Shown here one piece after another: positions 46,513 to 59,476 of a stretch of DNA of 64,000 bases (the first letter of the stretch is position 1; the number at the start of each line of letters is the position of its first letter). Source of the DNA: Fertoeibacter niger (lineage in GTDB: Bacteria; Pseudomonadota; Alphaproteobacteria; Rhodobacterales; Rhodobacteraceae). The notes under the pieces are model-generated. The model did not search any database and was not told where the DNA came from. It saw nothing but the letters and a program-made list of their open reading frames with translations. The stretch is taken from contig NZ_WHUT02000017.1 of assembly GCF_009380135.2 (NCBI RefSeq), positions 1 through 64,000 of the forward strand, read 5' to 3'. A program made the translations under genes and the position numbers.

Positions 46513-48285
46513 TCAGGGTTGCGCGCTGTTGTTGTTGGCGGTTGCGGGTCTTGATGCTTCGTCATCCATATTGGCCACGACACGCAACCGCGCACGGCGC
46601 AATGGCAACGCCTGGGCAAGACTGGCGGTCATCGGATCGGCGGACAACGCGCGGCCGAGGGCAGCCAGCCGCTCGGCACGAAGCAGCAGCGCCTTTCTGT
46701 GGGTGGCCGTTCTCAACGCATAGGCCTTGCGATTGGCGGCGTCGTCCAGAAGCGCGGGATAGCTGAGGTCTCCCGGCCCCGGTTCCGGGGAATCCCAATG
46801 GCGCGCATATTCGATCAGCAGGTCTTCGATCAGCGGAAGTTCGGTCAGGAAGCGTCGCCAGCGGTGTTCCTTCAGGTCGAATTCCTCCACGAAGGTGCGG
46901 CCCGCCTGCTCTCCGAACTCGGTCAACCGGCAAATCGTCTCTGGCGGCATTTGCAGGTTCAACCCGCCCTCGTCAGCTTTCAGCGCCACGGTCGCGATAC
47001 GTTCGCGGTAGCCCGTCAGAACGGCCTGAAGCGAATCCTGCCAGTCCTTGGCGCTGTCAAACATCGCCATCACGAAACCGGCCAGCCCGCCAAAAGGCCG
47101 GGTCGGCAGCAGTCGGCCCGCGCTGTCTGGCGTGGTGGGCAGGGTGATGCGTTGATCCTCCTCACCGGGTTTGGCGCGGGCGATGTCATATTCCGACAGG
47201 GCAATTCCGAAGGTCGGGGTCTGCGGCAGGAAACGGTCAAAGAAATGGACCGGAAAGTTCGAAGAGATCCCGCCATCGGAAAACAGGCAGCGCCGGATCT
47301 TGCGGGCACCATCCAGCCGCACCAGCGTATAGTCGATGCGATGCAGCGGCACCGCCGAGATAAGGCCGGGGAAGGACAGGCTCATGCGCGCCAGAACCAC
47401 CACCGGCAGATCATCCGACTGGAAGTAGTGCAGCTTGCCCGACGCATCGCCCCATTCGTCGGCCACCTTGCTGGAACAGGCGATCATGTGATCGACGACA
47501 TGGCCGGGAAACAGGCGGCGGAACTCGTCTTCGTGAAAGGCGTGCAGGTTGTTGCCCATCGGCAGGGCATAGGGCCGGTGCGTGGTGATGTCGGTGGTGA
47601 CTGTCTGGACGTTGATCCCTTCGGCCCGCAGCTGGCCGATTGTCAGCGGTCCCTTTCCTCGCCCAAGTCCCGCAACGTCGTCGATCGTGGCTGACAGCCA
47701 GTCGGTCAGCGCGGGGCCGGAATACCCCGGCTGGGTCAACCCGGTGCAAAGCCCGTAATCCTGTTCGGGCAGATCCCGCGTGGCTTGTTTTCTTGCCGCC
47801 AGCAGCGGGCCGATCAGCAGGCCTGCCAGCACCAAAAGCCCGCCCAGCACCAGAAAGCCCCAGTCTGCCGGTTTGTGCGGCGCGGCCGCCAGCACCATGA
47901 TGACGGCCCCGGGCAGCGCCGCGCCGGCGGCCGCAACCGGATAGCCCGTCAGCAGCGCGCGCAGGATCGCAGTGGGCTTGCCAGATAACCCCGCCAGCGC
48001 CAGTCTGAAAAGCGGGGCCAGTTGCGGCGTCGGCTGGAATTTTTCTAGCAAAGTCTTCGACAGATCCTGAGGCAGGGCCGCAACCCTGGTGAACCCGCCA
48101 CTGGCGCGGCCATACTCTGCCGCAGCCGTCACGGCCGCAGCAATCGCGCCAGCCGAGGTGCCGCCGATATTCTCGAACCTGTATTTCCGGGACAGGCCGA
48201 CCACGGCGCGCGGATAAACCACGCCCGAGGTGATGCCGCCCTTCATAACGAGGTCGCAGCGGTGGGTCGGGGGGCTGTCTTTCAT
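46513..48285 (-). CDS. Patatin-like phospholipase with internal membrane segments
   Basis: A 590-residue protein. The oxyanion loop is MKGGITSGVVYPRAV, the nucleophile is in G-T-S-A-G and the catalytic Asp in DGGISSNFP, giving a complete Ser-Asp dyad of patatin lipases. Between dyad halves, at about residues 120-165, two hydrophobic segments (AAAGAALPGAVIMVLAA and GFLVLGGLLVLAGLLIGPLLAA) predict membrane anchoring. ATG 48285 has GGAGG 5 bases upstream, better than ATG 48297. It is the last gene of an operon with HNH and ATPase genes, 29 bp after the HNH stop. A membrane-damaging effector role is inferred. Confidence 0.85.
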   Translation of the reverse strand: MKDSPPTHRCDLVMKGGITSGVVYPRAVVGLSRKYRFENIGGTSAGAIAAAVTAAAEYGRASGGFTRVAALPQDLSKTLLEKFQPTPQLAPLFRLALAGLSGKPTAILRALLTGYPVAAAGAALPGAVIMVLAAAPHKPADWGFLVLGGLLVLAGLLIGPLLAARKQATRDLPEQDYGLCTGLTQPGYSGPALTDWLSATIDDVAGLGRGKGPLTIGQLRAEGINVQTVTTDITTHRPYALPMGNNLHAFHEDEFRRLFPGHVVDHMIACSSKVADEWGDASGKLHYFQSDDLPVVVLARMSLSFPGLISAVPLHRIDYTLVRLDGARKIRRCLFSDGGISSNFPVHFFDRFLPQTPTFGIALSEYDIARAKPGEEDQRITLPTTPDSAGRLLPTRPFGGLAGFVMAMFDSAKDWQDSLQAVLTGYRERIATVALKADEGGLNLQMPPETICRLTEFGEQAGRTFVEEFDLKEHRWRRFLTELPLIEDLLIEYARHWDSPEPGPGDLSYPALLDDAANRKAYALRTATHRKALLLRAERLAALGRALSADPMTASLAQALPLRRARLRVVANMDDEASRPATANNNSAQP

Positions 48286-48314
48286 GAGTGCCTCCATCTT
48301 GCGGGGGGATGCGG

Positions 48315-49340
48315 TCAGGTGCGGTCTTCAATCAGATGGTCGACCCAGCGGTCGGTCCATTGCAGGACCATGGCCGAATAGGGCTGGTCGGGTTCGCCCA
48401 TCTGGCGGATCTCGGCAATCAGGCGGTCGATGAAACCTTCGATCACCGGCAGGGCCTCTTTCGCGGCGGCAGAGCGGCTTTGCGCCAGTTTGGTTGCCAA
48501 TGCATCCGCATCGGCGATCATCAGGCGCAACGCCTCCAGTTGCCGCAGCACGCGGGTGCGGGCCTGGACAAGACCCAGACGGTTCAGGCCATAGACCTGG
48601 ATCGACACCGCCCCGCGGACCGAAACATGCGCAGGAACGGCCCCCGGGTCGATGTCGGCGCCGACGGCGATCAACGGCAGGGCGTCGGGGGCGCCCGGTT
48701 GCAGACGGCGCGGCAGGACGAGCCCGAAGGGCACCGGGCTGTCGACCAGATACTCCAGATGCGCATCCGGGTCGTCGCGACACGGATCAAGAAGATAGGG
48801 CCGTTCGGTCAGAATCTCCTGGTCGGGATCTTCGCCAAGGCCAAGCGCGCGGGTGCCGGGCATGACCGGAAAGGCGCTTTCCTTGCCCGTCTGCCATATG
48901 GGTTTTCCCGAGTTGCGAAGGTCTGCAAGGCTGGCGGTGCCGGGGGTCGGCAGCACCTGATACCGGCGGCGGTTGCAATCGATGCAGGACGGCAGAAGGT
49001 TCATCCAGTCAGCGGCAAGCCACCAGTAACCCCAGTGATCCGGGTCATCCTCGACACCGCCCTTTGGCCGGTAATGCTCGATGTCCACCGGCGCCTGCGA
49101 GGCGTAATGGGTTTCGCAATAGGCGCATTTCCCCTGAAACAGCGCCTCCAGCGCCAACCGGCCCGCCTCATCCTTGTAGGTCATGAACTTGTAGGCCTTG
49201 GGGCGCGCGCCGCCCTGCGCCACGGTGTCCATGGCTTTGCGAACATAGGCCCACGCCTTGGCCCGCTCTTTGGCGGCAGAGCTGTCGGGGCCGTTGAAGG
49301 CACCGGGAACGGGATGGGATCCGCGGTCAACCCGGCGCAT
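48315..49340 (-). CDS. HNH endonuclease, PtuB/TIGR02646-like
   Basis: A 341-residue HNH protein. The zinc and catalytic motifs are intact: Cys72 and Cys75 in KCAYCE, DIEHYRPK with catalytic His89, Asn114 in DWMNLLPSC and Cys119/Cys122 followed by Asn123 in CIDCN. The DIEHYRPK pattern is that of retron- and Septu-associated HNH nucleases. Downstream, YLLDPCRDDPDAHLEY and VYGLNRLGLVQARTRVLRQLEALR match parts of the neighbouring ATPase protein. Its start overlaps the ATPase gene by 14 bp. It is predicted to cut DNA or tRNA under ATPase control. Confidence 0.85.
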   Translation of the reverse strand: MRRVDRGSHPVPGAFNGPDSSAAKERAKAWAYVRKAMDTVAQGGARPKAYKFMTYKDEAGRLALEALFQGKCAYCETHYASQAPVDIEHYRPKGGVEDDPDHWGYWWLAADWMNLLPSCIDCNRRRYQVLPTPGTASLADLRNSGKPIWQTGKESAFPVMPGTRALGLGEDPDQEILTERPYLLDPCRDDPDAHLEYLVDSPVPFGLVLPRRLQPGAPDALPLIAVGADIDPGAVPAHVSVRGAVSIQVYGLNRLGLVQARTRVLRQLEALRLMIADADALATKLAQSRSAAAKEALPVIEGFIDRLIAEIRQMGEPDQPYSAMVLQWTDRWVDHLIEDRT

Positions 49341-51570
49341 GCGGCACCCCCCTGTCCCGGCCTTCGGTCAGGATTCGCACGATCCTGTCGCGGGTGGCGT
49401 CGCGCAGCCGCGCGCGGTCGGGACCGGCGCTGCGGCCGCGTTGCAGCAGGTAATCCGCCACCGCCCCCTGCACCAGCATCGCCACTTCGCTGCGCCCTAC
49501 CGGCAGGGACTGGGTCACGTCATCGGCGATGGTGGCGATGAGTGCGGCCCGCCGGGCCTGACCGTCTTCGCTGTCGGGCGCAACGCTGCCCAGCCCGTCT
49601 GCAAGTTCGGCCAGCATGTTGCCGCGCGCGGGGTCGTCGGGATCGGCGACGCTGAAGAAATCCGAGGTCAGAAGCTGCTCGATGTTCAGGTTGGTGACAT
49701 CGGGCAGCCGGGTCAGCTGTTCGACCTTGACCGGCAACCCCTCGGCTCCCCGGGCGCGGGGCACGCGCTGCAACACCATCACCTCGCCGTTCTTCATGCC
49801 GCGCAGGCACAGCGGTTCATGCGACGTGGCGATGAAGGTGACATGCGGCAGCGCGGTGCGCAGACCCCGCATGATCTGCACCTTCCAGCGCGGATGCAGA
49901 TGCGCCTCCACCTCGTCGATCAGCACGATCGCCCGTGCCTGTCTCAGCGTCGGAAACGACCAGCCGCGCGCCGGGTCCATCAGCCAGCGCATCACGTCGC
50001 AGGTCAGCGCAAGAATGCTGCGAAAGCCCGACGAGACCGAGGACAGCGGCGTCATCGCCTCGGCCCCGCCCGGCCCGTCGGGCAGGGTCACAACCATGCA
50101 GCGATTGCCGATCACCTCGATCCGCTCGAACCCGCCACCGGGACCAAAGATCGACCGCAGCGCGGCAATGACATCATTGAAGGGATCAGGTTCCAGCGAC
50201 AACAGCCATCTTTCGGGGTTGGACAGCAGATTGTCGCTGTGAAACAGGCTGACGATGCCGCGGTCAGGCGTCCAGTCGCGGTAGTCCTTGAGGAAGTGAC
50301 GATAGGCCCCGTAGGCAAAGACCGGCAGGTCTTTCAGGGCGTTGGGTGGCCCAGACAGGCCCCGCAAGTGAAGCCGCAGCGTGCGTGTGCGGGTCTTGCC
50401 ATCGCGGTGGCGCAGGGTCAGCTTCACGGTGCCTTCGCTGTGGCGGGCCTCTTTGCCACCCATGAACACAGGGTCAAGCAGCAGGCTGCCAGGTTGCGGG
50501 ATCAGCGCGTCCCGGGCCGTGCCTGACGCAAACGTCAGCGCGATGGCTTCCAGGATCGATGACTTCCCGGCGGCATTTTCGCCCAGGATCAGCAGCGCGG
50601 TCGCAGGATCGTCGGGTGTCAGCGGGGCCGGCAGGGTGATGGTGAGATCCTCGATGCCCTTGAAACCACGGATGGCCACTTTCACGAGTGTCGGGGGATC
50701 GGAATACACCGGGGTGGCGGGCGTGACGGCAGCCGAGATGCGGGTTTGTCGCCGAGAGCGATGATGGGCCGACGCCTGATCAAAGGCGAGACCACGGGCA
50801 AGGCTTTCAAGAAACCCGGAAAACTCCAGGCCTGCGGGAAATATGCCCGCGAGATCAGCCTCGGGGTCGCGGGAAAGGATATCTGCCGCGTCCGCGCCAC
50901 GCGTGGCTTCGCGTGCCAGAGCCTCGCGGCGCAGCGCCACCAGCCCGTCACGGTTCAGCTGGAAATGACGGATGGTCTCTGCCCCGCGGGGGCTTTTCGG
51001 CTCCCACAGACCGTCTGACAGGGCCTGCATGTGCCCCGACAGGTGGGTGTCGGTGCATGGGTCCAGCAGCAGCGGCTGTTCGGTCAAGCCTGCGGCCCAG
51101 GGCGCAGTGTTCACCGGATAAGGCCAGAGACCCTTCTTGGTCGCCTCGAACCCTGCGTATACTTCGGGCGGCGGAATGGGCACCCGGGGGCCTGCGACCG
51201 GAAAATGGTTGGCGGGCGAGGGGCGGCAATCCGCGCAGATCGGATACAGGTTCTGCCACACATCGGCGAGCCAGCCATAAGCCAGCGCGCCTTCGCCGCC
51301 AAGGATCGGCAGAGCCTCGGATGTCGGTCGAAACCGATAGGGCATGCTGGTGGTCTTGCGCTCGCAGAAGGCGCATTTGTCATCGAACTGAATCCGCAAG
51401 GCGAGATCGAGTGTCGTTGCGGCGCTGGGAAGGTGGCGATCGGGCGGCCGGGTCTGCGCGCGGCGGCGCGGATCAAGCAACAGGAACTCCAGATAATCCT
51501 GCCGCATTCTTTGAAATTCAGGAATGGACAGTGCTTCTGGCGCGGGACTTGAACGCTCGACAAAACGCAT
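49327..51570 (-). CDS. HNH-like/AAA ATPase fusion protein, PtuA-like
   Basis: A 747-residue protein with two parts. Residues about 50-220 form an HNH-like domain with zinc cysteines CAFC and CADC and a DVWQNL motif, but the catalytic EH of the paralog is replaced by YR (YRFRP). Residues about 295-747 are an ABC/SMC-type AAA ATPase: Walker A GENAAGKSS, a signature-like SSVSSGFRSILAL, Walker B IVLIDEVEAHLHP and ATSHEP switch. ATG 51570 is preferred over TTG 51606. It leads the operon ATPase-HNH-patatin and is the likely sensor/regulator. Confidence 0.85.
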   Translation of the reverse strand: MRFVERSSPAPEALSIPEFQRMRQDYLEFLLLDPRRRAQTRPPDRHLPSAATTLDLALRIQFDDKCAFCERKTTSMPYRFRPTSEALPILGGEGALAYGWLADVWQNLYPICADCRPSPANHFPVAGPRVPIPPPEVYAGFEATKKGLWPYPVNTAPWAAGLTEQPLLLDPCTDTHLSGHMQALSDGLWEPKSPRGAETIRHFQLNRDGLVALRREALAREATRGADAADILSRDPEADLAGIFPAGLEFSGFLESLARGLAFDQASAHHRSRRQTRISAAVTPATPVYSDPPTLVKVAIRGFKGIEDLTITLPAPLTPDDPATALLILGENAAGKSSILEAIALTFASGTARDALIPQPGSLLLDPVFMGGKEARHSEGTVKLTLRHRDGKTRTRTLRLHLRGLSGPPNALKDLPVFAYGAYRHFLKDYRDWTPDRGIVSLFHSDNLLSNPERWLLSLEPDPFNDVIAALRSIFGPGGGFERIEVIGNRCMVVTLPDGPGGAEAMTPLSSVSSGFRSILALTCDVMRWLMDPARGWSFPTLRQARAIVLIDEVEAHLHPRWKVQIMRGLRTALPHVTFIATSHEPLCLRGMKNGEVMVLQRVPRARGAEGLPVKVEQLTRLPDVTNLNIEQLLTSDFFSVADPDDPARGNMLAELADGLGSVAPDSEDGQARRAALIATIADDVTQSLPVGRSEVAMLVQGAVADYLLQRGRSAGPDRARLRDATRDRIVRILTEGRDRGVPHAPG

Positions 51571-52070
51571 GACACGAGGCCTGAAAAGCGGTTTCGGTGG
51601 AAACAAGTTGTCACGTAGAATACAGCAATTGCATCAACTGTAGCACGTTTTTTTCTGTATGGCGTCATCCTATGCGATAAAATCGGGGGGCCAAAGTGGG
51701 GCTGGCAAGGCCAGACGCTTCCCAAGCGCGACACAAAGATGAAGGTCGCCCCGGCTCAATTGATGGGCGCTTGGGGAATGGGGCTGCACAGGCGAACAGG
51801 TTTTTCCAGTGCAAGGGCTTTTTTCGACCGCAGGGATTATCGACGCGGGTTTCCCCCGGCCGGTGTCCGCTCTGTTAATTGATGTGGAACGCATTTTCGG
51901 GCACCCGAGGATGACCTTGGCTGCATGCCCGACGCGGTGGATGCAGATGGAAGGGCTGTCTGGGAAGGGCGCAGGGCAGCGCCGGGCCGATTGGTTGTCC
52001 AAAGGGGAAATGGCGTTCGCAACAATGTGGCCGCCAGATTGCCTCACTCAAGCAGCACGGGACGGCAAAG
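51571..52070. other. Intergenic region between ATPase fusion and LysR genes
   Basis: About 500 bp upstream of the putative defence operon. It should contain the operon's promoter: an AT-rich patch at about 51605-51665 (with a run of six T) lies just before the start. The remainder has only overlapping short frames without recognised products. Confidence 0.5.
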
Positions 52071-55192: not shown

Positions 55193-55810
55193 TTGATCGG
55201 ACGAAGCTTGATGTTAGCGCTTGCAATTTCCTGTGCGCCGACTCTTGCAGCAGCGGATGCGAATGCCGTTGCTGCGGCGTTGCAAAGTTGGCGAGACGCG
55301 TGCAGCGACCCTAACCCGGATCTGGCGGTCGGCTACCTCGGCGATGCGATGGCCACCGGGAACATCGACGTCCGCAAAGCGTGCCTTCGGCAAATACTGA
55401 GTAGTGACAATCTCGATGTGCAAAGCGCCGCGCTGAGGGTGCTGGTTGCTAGCCTGCCGGTAATACGCTTCCGAACAGGCAAGCCGAACAATGGCAGTGC
55501 CGGCGGGCGGGCGAGAGAGATCTCAGCTTCGCTGCGGCATGGGTTGGTCTTCTATGCCTCGAACGGCGACGCCGCCACAGCGACCGCACAGTGGAGCCCG
55601 CTTGTCCGAAACACCGTTCCTCTGGAGACGGCGACAGGAAGGGTGAGCGTCTTCGGCTCTTCAATCCACTGGGCCGGGACATGCTACTATGACGAAGGCG
55701 AGGTGTTCGATTGCCAGCTGTCGGCAGACCTGGTCGAGGGAGACCAATTGACCGGGATATTCTTGATAAGGGATATGGAGTTTCCGGTAACAGCCAGCCT
55801 GTTTGACTGA
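55193..55810 (+). CDS. Predicted secreted protein of unknown function
   Basis: A 205-residue protein with signal peptide MIGRSLMLALAISCAPTLAAAD. The mature N-terminal half is helical and HEAT-like in pattern (AALQSWRDACSDPNPDLAVGYLGDAMATGNIDVRKACLRQILSSDNLDVQSAALRVLVASL). The C-terminal half is beta-rich with two Cys (TCYYDEGEVFDCQL). TTG 55193 has AGGAG 6 bases upstream; ATG 55211 is an alternative without one. It is convergent with the protease-like operon, 8 bp away, and may belong with it functionally. Confidence 0.65.
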   Translation: MIGRSLMLALAISCAPTLAAADANAVAAALQSWRDACSDPNPDLAVGYLGDAMATGNIDVRKACLRQILSSDNLDVQSAALRVLVASLPVIRFRTGKPNNGSAGGRAREISASLRHGLVFYASNGDAATATAQWSPLVRNTVPLETATGRVSVFGSSIHWAGTCYYDEGEVFDCQLSADLVEGDQLTGIFLIRDMEFPVTASLFD

Positions 55811-55818
55811 ATCCGCCG

Positions 55819-56922
55819 CTATTGCAGATATATCTCAGATAGGCCCACCACGCCTTGCGCCGGAACCGCACGGAACCTCAATTTCAAAGGGCCCTTTGCG
55901 CCAACCCGGCAAATTGATGCCGATGCGCCGACCATGCAGCGGTTGTTCAGCGTTGTCCAGCCGTCGCCCCGGTTCATCTCGATGGTCAGGGCCGTGGCCG
56001 GGCCGCAGGCTGGATCGGCGCGCAAGCGGATAGCTGACACCTGCACATTGTCCTTGATCTGCAGCACCACCTCAACCACACGCTTCCCAGGCGGTGGGGT
56101 CACCTGCCAGCAGCCTCCTGGTGCGATTTCGGACAGAAGGGCAGAGGCTTCCAAGGGCACCGCCAGTAAATGAAGAATTTCGAAGCGTATCTGACCGGGT
56201 TGATCCAGAGGTTCAGGTGAACGGCTGTTCTGTGCCGCCTCGATCAGTTCGAAGGCTGCACGAACAAGGTCGAAGCGCAGGACGCTGGCATCGCCTTCAT
56301 CTTTCCGCACCTCAAGAATCATGGCGGCGGGAAGCGGGTTACCCTCCCAGTCCAAGAACACGATTGACCCACTAAGGCCGCCGCGAAAAAAGGTGCGATC
56401 CGCTGGATTCAACGGGCGCACCAGAAATCGGCTGCCCTGCGCTTCATCAGTCGTGCTACGAAATCTATCGACGGCGAAAGTGACCGTGGCGCCTTCTTGC
56501 ACATGGATCACGTTCAGTGCACGCGAGCGAGCCAGTGCGTCAACATAGGATTGCCCTGGCAGACCCAGCCGCGAGTTGCAGTCGCCCTCCGCCCTGCCCG
56601 CCACCACGCGGGCGAATGCCAGGTCGTCCACCATCCCGGCTGCCTGCAATGCACCTGGCACCGCCGAGACCCGGATGGGTTGCGCGGTTTCGCCACTGCG
56701 ACCAGACTGGTCGCGAAAAGCGAAGGCGGGGGCCGTTGTCGTATCCATCGTGCCAACGACATGCCAGGGCAAGGCAATCCAGCAACTGCTGTCGTTGCGC
56801 GAACCGAAGAGCCAGCCGTTTCCGACCTCTTCGAAGGCGGCGTTGACGAAGACCACCTCGGCACGAGCGGCACCGCCGCAGACAGCCATCAGCAGTGCCA
56901 GAACCTGCATGGCTCGGATCAT
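55819..56922 (-). CDS. Predicted secreted trypsin-like serine protease
   Basis: A 367-residue protein with a signal peptide ending near AARAE. Residues about 25-210 resemble a trypsin-fold protease: GNGWLFG then CWIALPWHVV with His54, VDDLAFARV with Asp100, and GGLSGSIVFL with Ser184. The spacing fits the chymotrypsin order His-Asp-Ser. The C-terminal 150 residues are a beta-rich domain with Cys pairs. Its start overlaps the upstream membrane-protein gene by 4 bp. The family is otherwise unrecognised; activity is inferred. Confidence 0.62.
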   Translation of the reverse strand: MIRAMQVLALLMAVCGGAARAEVVFVNAAFEEVGNGWLFGSRNDSSCWIALPWHVVGTMDTTTAPAFAFRDQSGRSGETAQPIRVSAVPGALQAAGMVDDLAFARVVAGRAEGDCNSRLGLPGQSYVDALARSRALNVIHVQEGATVTFAVDRFRSTTDEAQGSRFLVRPLNPADRTFFRGGLSGSIVFLDWEGNPLPAAMILEVRKDEGDASVLRFDLVRAAFELIEAAQNSRSPEPLDQPGQIRFEILHLLAVPLEASALLSEIAPGGCWQVTPPPGKRVVEVVLQIKDNVQVSAIRLRADPACGPATALTIEMNRGDGWTTLNNRCMVGASASICRVGAKGPLKLRFRAVPAQGVVGLSEIYLQ

Positions 56923-57917
56923 CGGCGGCCCCGTTTGTCGCGCACCACCCCGTCAAGCGCGCACAAGAGTTGAAGGATGAAGCCGAATATCGCGATGGCG
57001 ACAAGGATCGGCACCAGACCAGGGTTGGAGAAGCTCCGTGCAAAGGCCCCAACTGCCAGCCTTTCGACCTGATCGCGCTGACCTATGCGATAGATCAGCA
57101 CTTCTGATGCCTCCAGCGTTACCTCGACATCCAGCGCGAAGTCGTCCGCGGCCGCCGTAACCGTGCCGACCATTGTGGAAGGTTCTTCCGTGCTGGACAG
57201 CCGGCTGCCACGGGGGATCTGGAACTCGGCGTCGGGGATGGGATAAAGTTGGCCCGTCCCGGACAAGGTCGAGGTCCGACCGAACAGCCGGACCGTCGCC
57301 CCCATCAGCAAGGGGCCCGGCGCACGGCGCACGCTGAACCCGCCATGGCCATCATCGACCTGGATCAGGTCTTGTGCCTGCACCGGCGCGGTCTGTATTC
57401 TCAGTTCCGCGCCTATTTCGCCACGGCCAACGATCGGAAAGGGCAGGTGCCGGTCCAGCACCTCATTCGGCACAAGAAGGTTCAGGGTGTCGCCCTGCAC
57501 CTTGCAGACTGCGTGACCCTCGACGGTCAGTTCGGCTGCGGAAGTTCCCGGCGGAATGTCCAGTGTGATCAACAGATGGCTACGATGGTGAGTGTAGGAG
57601 ACCCGGTTGCCTTGTCCGGGCGCCACCAAGCCCGTGAATCGACCCGTGCCGTCCAGAATCCCTTCACAGACCTGCGAACGATCGCGCAACTGCGCTCCCT
57701 GAAGGGTGAAATTCGAGGCGGGGCCGCGCTGCACTTCGTAGGTAACGAAAGTCGATTGCGCACTGATCAGCGCTACGGGCGTGATGTCCAGAACGAAGAC
57801 ACGCACGAACAGGAAGATTACCCCGGTCAGGCCCGCCGAGGCCAACAGGAACCAGGCCGGCCTCGACCAGGAAGAGACGGACTCGAAAAGGGTGCGGAGC
57901 CGTTTCGGCAGCGTCAT
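56919..57917 (-). CDS. Bitopic membrane protein with large periplasmic domain
   Basis: A 332-residue protein with one membrane span near each end (WFLLASAGLTGVIFLFVRVFVL at about 22-43 and LVPILVAIAIFGFILQLLCALD at about 300-321) and some 250 residues of beta-rich, presumably periplasmic sequence between them. The C-terminus ends basic, VRDKRGRR. No family is recognised. It overlaps both neighbours by 4 bp (ATGA), so the three genes are tightly co-translated. Confidence 0.65.
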   Translation of the reverse strand: MTLPKRLRTLFESVSSWSRPAWFLLASAGLTGVIFLFVRVFVLDITPVALISAQSTFVTYEVQRGPASNFTLQGAQLRDRSQVCEGILDGTGRFTGLVAPGQGNRVSYTHHRSHLLITLDIPPGTSAAELTVEGHAVCKVQGDTLNLLVPNEVLDRHLPFPIVGRGEIGAELRIQTAPVQAQDLIQVDDGHGGFSVRRAPGPLLMGATVRLFGRTSTLSGTGQLYPIPDAEFQIPRGSRLSSTEEPSTMVGTVTAAADDFALDVEVTLEASEVLIYRIGQRDQVERLAVGAFARSFSNPGLVPILVAIAIFGFILQLLCALDGVVRDKRGRR

Positions 57918-58612
57918 TGGTGCGCCGGTAGAAATATCTTGTAGTCTTCCCTTACGACTGTCAGCCCATCATCCATCGCGACCTGAAGCACTCTCTGGGT
58001 CGGCCGGTCCGACAACACGACGGCGAGCGTGCAGATACTGTCGAAGACAATCCGTTCGATGTTCTGAGGCGTGACACACACCACCTGTTCGCCGCCATCC
58101 AGTCCGGCGGAAATCCGGCGGCTGCCAGAATTCAGCAATACCTCAATGCGGTCTGGTGCGCCCTCGGGAACCAAGACCGGCAGCACCAAGGGTGACTGAT
58201 CCAAACAGGATGCGTCTACCGAACTGAAAGCTACGATCGCGATCTCACCTTCTCCGTAGGATCGAAGTATCTGGTCAAGGCTACTAGTGAATGGTTCGAT
58301 CAGGAGCCGCTTTCCCGAGGCCGTGGCTTCCACACCATAGTAGGTCCGCATCCAGTAAAGACCGTCGCGACTAATGCTGCGGACACAGACGCCCGCCAGT
58401 GATACAGGCCTCACCACCTGCACGTTGCTCGGGTCGAAAGCAAGGCCACGTGCCGTTCCCAGCCGAACGCTGACGAGCCGACTTCCAGCCACACGCGCTG
58501 TCGTGTCGAAGTGCTCGTTCACGGAGCCGCTCAGCGATGTTACAGCCACATCCTGTGCAACCACATCGCCGGGCATTGCGAACATCACGGACACGAAAAA
58601 GGCACGAAGCAT
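57914..58612 (-). CDS. Predicted secreted protein, first gene of protease operon
   Basis: A 232-residue protein with signal peptide MLRAFFVSVMFAMPGDVVAQ and a beta-rich mature part with Cys residues (VSLAGVCVRSISRDGLYWMRTYYGVEA, VDASCLDQSPLVLPVLVPEG, QVVCVTPQNIERIVFDSICTLAV). The start at 58612 is supported by AGGAGG 9 bases upstream; two earlier ATGs lack one. It leads an operon with the membrane and protease-like proteins. No family is recognised. Confidence 0.65.
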   Translation of the reverse strand: MLRAFFVSVMFAMPGDVVAQDVAVTSLSGSVNEHFDTTARVAGSRLVSVRLGTARGLAFDPSNVQVVRPVSLAGVCVRSISRDGLYWMRTYYGVEATASGKRLLIEPFTSSLDQILRSYGEGEIAIVAFSSVDASCLDQSPLVLPVLVPEGAPDRIEVLLNSGSRRISAGLDGGEQVVCVTPQNIERIVFDSICTLAVVLSDRPTQRVLQVAMDDGLTVVREDYKIFLPAHQ

Positions 58613-59201: not shown

Positions 59202-59291
59202 GGCATACCCTGTTCTGGCACCAACTCTGGCACTTAGAATGGCACCAAGGTCATGAAAGCAAGGGGTTTCTTTGATATCAATGGGATAAGG

Positions 59292-59366
59292 TGGTGCTGT
59301 GAGAGAGGATTGAACTCTCGACCTCACCCTTACCAAGGGTGTGCTCTACCACTGAGCTACCACAGC
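59292..59366 (-). tRNA. tRNA-Thr(GGT)
   Basis: On the minus strand, acceptor GCTGTGG pairs with TCACAGC (one G-U pair). The D-arm is TAGCTCAGTGGTAGAGCA, the anticodon loop TTGGTAA carries GGT (59332-59334), the T-loop is GTTCAATCC, and A-CCA is encoded. Length is 75 nt. The integrase remnant lies directly downstream, so this gene is the likely attachment site of the island to the left. Confidence 0.96.
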
Positions 59367-59476
59367 GCCGGCGCCGGTGAAGGTGTCCCTTCGGGCGTGG
59401 CGGCTGATTAGACGCAATCGCGGGGCCGTGCAAGCGCAATCTGGACCCTTTTTCGCGGCTGGGCTACAGAGGGCGC

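Follow-up and report, generated by a model that had tools for sequence, protein, structure and literature searches.

The closest described counterparts of the gene set reported here are the HtrA proteases DegS and DegP, in which a trypsin-fold serine protease is followed by a C-terminal regulatory domain. The HtrA family motif at the catalytic serine is GNSGG, and DegS is a protease that is switched on by a bound cue. Trypsin-like proteases also occur in accessory gene sets. In the protease/nuclease pairs of the Hachiman, AVAST, Lamassu and DRT systems, a protease fused to a defence enzyme activates a nuclease of the metallo-β-lactamase (MBL) fold, according to the available part of that study (PMC12799240). 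The available part of a second study describes the Trypsin/Trypco conflict systems, in which a trypsin-like peptidase co-occurs with a partner gene as part of nucleoside triphosphate (NTP)-dependent systems (PMC7159879). Here we describe a set of four genes, g1–g4 (the quartet), in a stretch of 64,000 nucleotides from Fertoeibacter niger (the window: contig NZ_WHUT02000017.1 of assembly GCF_009380135.2, positions 1–64,000, forward strand). The quartet appears to be a proteolytic device of the cell envelope that has not been described. The fold of its enzyme is known; the four-gene set and the membrane protein g2 are undescribed in the sources searched, and no description of the quartet was found in the literature searched (open-licence PMC papers).

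Three of the genes are encoded on the minus strand between positions 55819 and 58612: g1 (57914–58612, 232 amino acids), g2 (56919–57917, 332 amino acids) and g3 (55819–56922, 367 amino acids). The g1/g2 and g2/g3 junctions are both ATGA overlaps, bearing out the three-gene coupled operon proposed in the initial annotation. That annotation overlooked a fourth gene, g4 (55193–55810, plus strand, 205 amino acids), which converges on the operon such that the stops of g4 and g3 are 8 bases apart. None of the four proteins of the window has a match in Pfam, NCBIfam or PADLOC 2.0.0 (E up to 1), and the earlier statement that the three operon proteins belong to no known family therefore holds for the window's own proteins. 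The same scans give no NTPase match for any of them.

The g3 protein is predicted to be a secreted serine protease. Its structure model, built from 13 aligned sequences, has a mean predicted local distance difference test score (pLDDT) of 84.5 and a predicted template modelling score (pTM) of 0.79. It consists of a double-barrel trypsin fold with a discoidin-like (F5/8 type C) domain C-terminal to it, and thus contains the trypsin-like barrel expected from the initial annotation. Residues 5–232 of the model superpose on DegS, DegP and thrombin with Z-scores of about 17–18; the VIA-align matches include DegS (2qf0_F, Z 18.2) and 3lh3_H (Z 17.9 at 2.6 Å over 173 residues). Foldseek likewise lists trypsin-fold proteases for the g3 model, with VesC of Vibrio cholerae (6bqm) in the top row. 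For the C-terminal part, it returns the F5/8 domains of GH29 enzymes, CBM32 and DOC domains at E-values of about 1e-5 to 3e-4, and the jelly-roll fold is represented by 6tr4, 3uet, 4a42, 9r6v and 1jhj. Among 14 g3 family members searched with Pfam (E up to 0.1), seven match Trypsin_2 (best E 1.9e-4), and none matches the F5/8C or PDZ models.

The catalytic residues recognized in the initial annotation are fully conserved. An alignment of 26 g3 homologues, with a median pairwise identity of 20%, shows H54, D100 and S184 to be invariant, together with G182, G185, C47, C115 and R216. The order His–Asp–Ser is that of trypsins, and Ser184 lies in a GxSG context. The same His, Asp and Ser can be read by eye in two further loci, L069 and L071. 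The protease part is more conserved than the C-terminal part in 9/9 compared pairs, using approximate domain boundaries. Trypsins are activated through the Ile16–Asp194 zymogen switch, in which a new N-terminus is engaged. The residue preceding the catalytic serine of g3 is L, M, A, I, T, S or W in all 26 homologues and never Asp; trypsin-style activation is therefore unlikely judging from the sequences, and an HtrA-like switch is the likelier arrangement.

All four genes are found together in 28 distinct loci and in two arrangements. In type I (n = 13; the window, L004, L007–L015, L019 and L051), g1–g2–g3 are followed by a facing g4. In type II (n = 15; L020, L021, L039–L049, L069 and L071), g1–g2 are divergent from g3 and g4 again faces g3. 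The hosts are mostly Alphaproteobacteria, comprising the window's family, Rhizobiaceae and other Rhizobiales, Bosea and two further alphaproteobacterial families (f33 and f42), with one Thermodesulfobacteriota (L010) bringing the total to two phyla. Some loci carry caveats: g1 of L012 is truncated near the contig start, g1 of L051 is split over two frames, and g2 of L046 was found by frame reading and confirmed by hhalign (96.8%). A scan of the genome collection yielded nine loci out of 38 pattern stretches, and plasmid searches yielded two records, with a second search returning the same two plus one more. The g3 tree (26 proteins) separates type I from type II by one fully supported branch; L010 groups with type I proteins from the window's family (94/82, not starred), and is flagged for its long branch and odd composition.

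Genome draws give lower bounds on abundance. With a single sequence as the query, matches were found in 2/198 genomes of the family; draws from the class and the phylum gave 4/385 and 2/398, the window's own genome being included in each. A g3 profile, for which five candidates were scored per genome, detected 15/394 genomes of the family (again including the window's own). Fourteen of these carry the quartet, and the fifteenth (G1063, L050) has a short partial match without partners. A g1 profile applied to the same 394 genomes gave 17 matches, 16 of them with the quartet, including two genomes missed by the g3 profile (G185 and G1088). The quartet is thus present in at least 16/394 drawn genomes of the family, counting the window's own, which is a patchy distribution. 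In three close pairs of loci, the ratio of non-synonymous to synonymous substitution rates (dN/dS) is 0.04–0.33 in 11 of 12 comparisons covering all four genes; the twelfth yields no dS. Because the set recurs elsewhere and all four genes of close pairs are under purifying selection, it is more than a chance assemblage. Between g1, g2 and g3, pairwise distances correlate with coefficients of 0.93–0.95, a result that shared descent alone would also give.

The partner proteins are less readily classified. In g1, cysteines 76, 136, 179 and 194 are invariant in 23/23 aligned homologues, and the protein is probably disulphide-bonded; no Pfam match is found among the 23 members (E up to 0.05). The possibility that g1 is a paralogue of g2 was rejected (hhalign probability 0.1%). 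For g2, the membrane span at each end described initially is borne out by hydropathy (residues 33–51 and 301–319). The g2 model (23 sequences; pLDDT 83.5, pTM 0.77) has a helix at residues 5–42, a beta-rich domain and a second helix at 301–330. Foldseek finds no PDB match to this fold at an E-value of 0.001 or better, the top rows having template modelling scores (TM-scores) near 0.1, which is noise. The best VIA-align matches are two-span channels, P2X1 (9c2b_A, Z 6.0 over 55 residues) and ASOR (8h8d_A, Z 5.6 over 81), scores below the 7 to 8 usual for models that have no clear match. The missing PDB match is no proof of a new fold. The g2 proteins of the two arrangements are related: a single type II sequence (P0012) gives only a weak hit to the type I profile (8%), which is resolved by the profile–profile comparison (hhalign 97.4%, E 1.3e-11).

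The g4 protein has a HEAT-like N-terminal half and a beta-rich C-terminal half; Pfam identifies HEAT in 4/29 members and HEAT_2 in 2/29. The gene faces the 3′ end of g3 in 27/28 loci, and is duplicated in tandem in L043, L045 and L047 and triplicated in L046. Such multiplication of the gene is suggestive of an inhibitor or an immunity protein.

We lean toward the view that the quartet encodes a dedicated protease module of the envelope whose activity is regulated by a ligand. The basis for this view, as given by the tool results, is the fold of g3, its invariant catalytic residues, the membrane spans of g2 and the co-conservation of the genes. In the mechanism we propose, g3 would be exported and would function as an HtrA-like serine protease in which a discoidin-like binding domain replaces the PDZ domain. 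g2 would be the inner-membrane anchor of the module, oriented so that its beta-rich domain is in the periplasm, and g1, if exported, would be a disulphide-bonded periplasmic partner; the four proteins may form a complex. g4 could then be a soluble, HEAT-like periplasmic partner kept at the 3′ end of g3, and would most likely serve as a protease inhibitor or adaptor. By analogy with DegS, g3 may be switched on when a cue, such as a glycan or a misfolded or foreign envelope protein, attaches to its discoidin-like domain or to g1/g2. Active g3 would then cut a local substrate, plausibly g2 or g1.

Several observations weigh against this model. Profile searches of PDB sequences with g3 are weak for both domains (HtrA1 at profile positions 30–203, E 0.032; F5/8 type C at positions 223–346, E 0.015), and the window's own g3 has no Pfam match even at an E-value of 1. 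The leaders of g1 and g4 were judged by eye, and a hydropathy scan flagged that of g3 (residues 1–19) but not those of g1 or g4. L044 is an exception in gene order, its g4 facing g2. When 26 loci are clustered, no regulator gene is shared by the flanks of three or more of them, and a DegS-style signal to transcription is consequently not supported. Finally, in genome G017 (L070, 3023–5935) the gene after g1–g2 is radical-SAM-like (by eye); the 11 kb read contain neither g3 nor g4, and the genome draw gave no g3 match for this genome (5/28 first-look candidates scored). g1–g2 can therefore persist without the protease, and a swap of the effector half of the quartet in this genome is possible. 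With 16 of 17 g1-profile matches accompanied by the quartet and G017 by g1–g2 only, the linkage of the genes is strong but not absolute. The trio first proposed as a unit does recur elsewhere, as the initial annotation required of it, but the unit is better described as a quartet, and g1–g2 have once been found on their own.

An alternative that we rate as unlikely, though ahead of the others, is that the quartet is an anti-phage or anti-plasmid defence of the envelope, which would detect phage adsorption or a change in an envelope component and use proteolysis to cause membrane damage or block entry. Its patchy spread within the family is in keeping with this idea, as is its presence on large plasmids of Rhizobium leguminosarum and on a Bosea plasmid typed as conjugative (L051). 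Known defence genes also lie near three loci. A Septu pair is located at 48315–51606 of the window and encodes a PtuA-like ATPase (PADLOC E 8.8e-211) and a PtuB-like HNH protein (E 1.4e-104); an Upx-like protein (PADLOC E 8.5e-77) directly adjoins the quartet in L051 (10284–13997), with a caspase-like gene after it; and DpdC is near the quartet in L015 (Rhizobium Root483D2). Known antiviral systems do use trypsin-like proteases, as the accessible part of PMC12799240 describes, but the protease there acts by switching on a nuclease, and a search of the available text for signal peptide, periplasm, transmembrane and secreted gives no occurrences. In addition, no PADLOC model fits the four proteins of the window, and many other quartet loci lie among transport and metabolic genes, as judged by eye from the starts of open reading frames (ORFs). 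The PADLOC scan of flanks was confined to 10 chosen proteins from three loci besides the window (L051, L015 and L004).

The island context assumed in the initial annotation is supported in part, by the nearby Septu pair and by the adjacency to a tRNA gene in three loci. A tRNA-Thr(GGT) gene (59292–59366, minus strand) adjoins the quartet in the window and is followed by murA. The same tRNA gene is beside the quartet in L012 (4962–5036) and L047 (11447–11521), and in all three cases, representing three genera, murA and hisD (named by eye) come next. These are 3 of 26 scanned loci, a scan that left out L069 and L071 and included some short stretches. The tRNA-Thr(GGT)–murA region is thus a recurring landing place of the quartet. 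The gene closest to the tRNA is g1 in the window and g4 in L012 and L047, in opposite orientations, and separate insertions are therefore likely. Against an island, no direct repeat of the tRNA region that would mark an attachment (att) site is evident, as no 13-base word starting at 59230–59369 recurs elsewhere on the plus strand of the window, inverted copies not having been sought. In Jhaorihella, the quartet lies beside partition-like genes (by eye). Carriage as phage cargo is not supported: 0/24 IMG/VR pattern matches encode a relative by tblastn, and the window's g3 has no match in 50,697 phage records, a negative that applies to relatives of such closeness.

Other features of these surroundings can be noted. 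The N-terminal part of the window's PtuA-like ATPase also fits a PtuB model (E 7.5e-17), and a patatin-like gene (46513–48297) follows the Septu pair. A gene of about 140 amino acids adjoins g4 in three Rhizobiales (L004, 9715–10191; L013, 9863–10321; L015, 9836–10285), and the L004 copy has no Pfam or PADLOC match. A fixed fifth gene was rejected. Flank genes were predicted with a rough, home-made codon score and identified mostly by eye, and ORF clustering of the 26 loci reveals no specific, widely shared flank gene in clusters of three or more loci. Besides the gene of about 140 amino acids, the clusters that do appear are ABC-transporter ATPases in nine loci, which are common paralogues, and murA, a short gene and hisD in the three loci of the tRNA-Thr spot.

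Somewhat less probable than a defence role is that g3 is a protease toxin, exported or anchored by g1–g2, that damages the envelope of rival cells or of the producer, with g4 as a periplasmic immunity protein. The convergent placement of g4 at the 3′ end of g3, its leader as judged by eye and its tandem copies are what such a pair would look like. The relative rates of divergence argue otherwise, in that the identity of g4 is above that of g3 or within three points of it in 8/9 pairs, and g4 is thus not the faster evolving of the two. The exception is L044/L047 (29% for g4 versus 55% for g3), where one of the two L047 g4 copies was compared. The proteins show no apparent delivery domain, and g1–g2 are retained as strictly as g4.

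We think it improbable that the quartet serves ordinary envelope maintenance or nutrition, as a protease unit that deals with outer-membrane proteins, glycans or iron-binding proteins. This idea draws on individual neighbours among 10 chosen flank proteins scanned with Pfam: a PAN-domain bacterial alpha-2-macroglobulin, a protease trap, adjoining the quartet in L044 (434–5887); a Slam-like (SlipAM) protein with a TbpB-like protein adjoining it in L048 (4934–7284); an M48 peptidase in L039; and a caspase-domain (Peptidase_C14) protein near the quartet in L041 (12206–13654). No such neighbour is found at three loci or more, and a housekeeping function would not be expected to be so patchily distributed.

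Least probable, and little better than a long shot, is a scheme in which g2 would be a pore or ion channel that stays closed until ligand-triggered g3 cleaves either g1 or the g2 ectodomain; g4 would be a safety catch, and the device would be used against phages or competitors. The layout of g2 is that of two-span trimeric channels such as P2X and ASOR (TM1, a large beta-rich ectodomain and TM2, the two transmembrane spans). Animals have protease-activated two-span channels, of which such a g2 would be the bacterial counterpart in logic.

The quartet stands out in that it links a trypsin-fold protease, whose catalytic residues never vary in the alignment, to a membrane protein without a matching fold, in that it occurs in two phyla and on plasmids, and in that three curated libraries name none of the window's proteins. 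If the regulated envelope protease that we favour is correct, it would represent a second way, besides DegS/HtrA, of converting an envelope cue into proteolysis. If the role is instead defensive, the quartet would be a proteolytic immune system located in the envelope, as opposed to the nuclease-activating protease described in the available part of PMC12799240.

Comparison with known systems places these possibilities in context. The secreted serine protease VesC gives the top Foldseek row for g3, but the whole-length TM-scores are low (0.36 and 0.30), and we know of no four-gene set for VesC. The Trypsin/Trypco systems share with the quartet the pairing of a trypsin-like peptidase with a co-occurring partner gene, but are NTP-dependent as far as the accessible text of PMC7159879 goes, whereas the quartet proteins have no NTPase match. 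The protease/nuclease pairs of PMC12799240, within the part available, likewise place a trypsin-like protease in an accessory gene set, and g3 differs from them in having a leader, a membrane-protein partner and no nuclease partner. DegS and DegP provide the best VIA-align matches to the protease part and the same order of protease and C-terminal regulatory domain. They differ from g3 in carrying a PDZ rather than a discoidin-like domain and in having GNSGG at the catalytic serine in place of GxSG with L, M, T and other residues before the serine. Unlike DegS and DegP, g3 is encoded with three partners of no known family.

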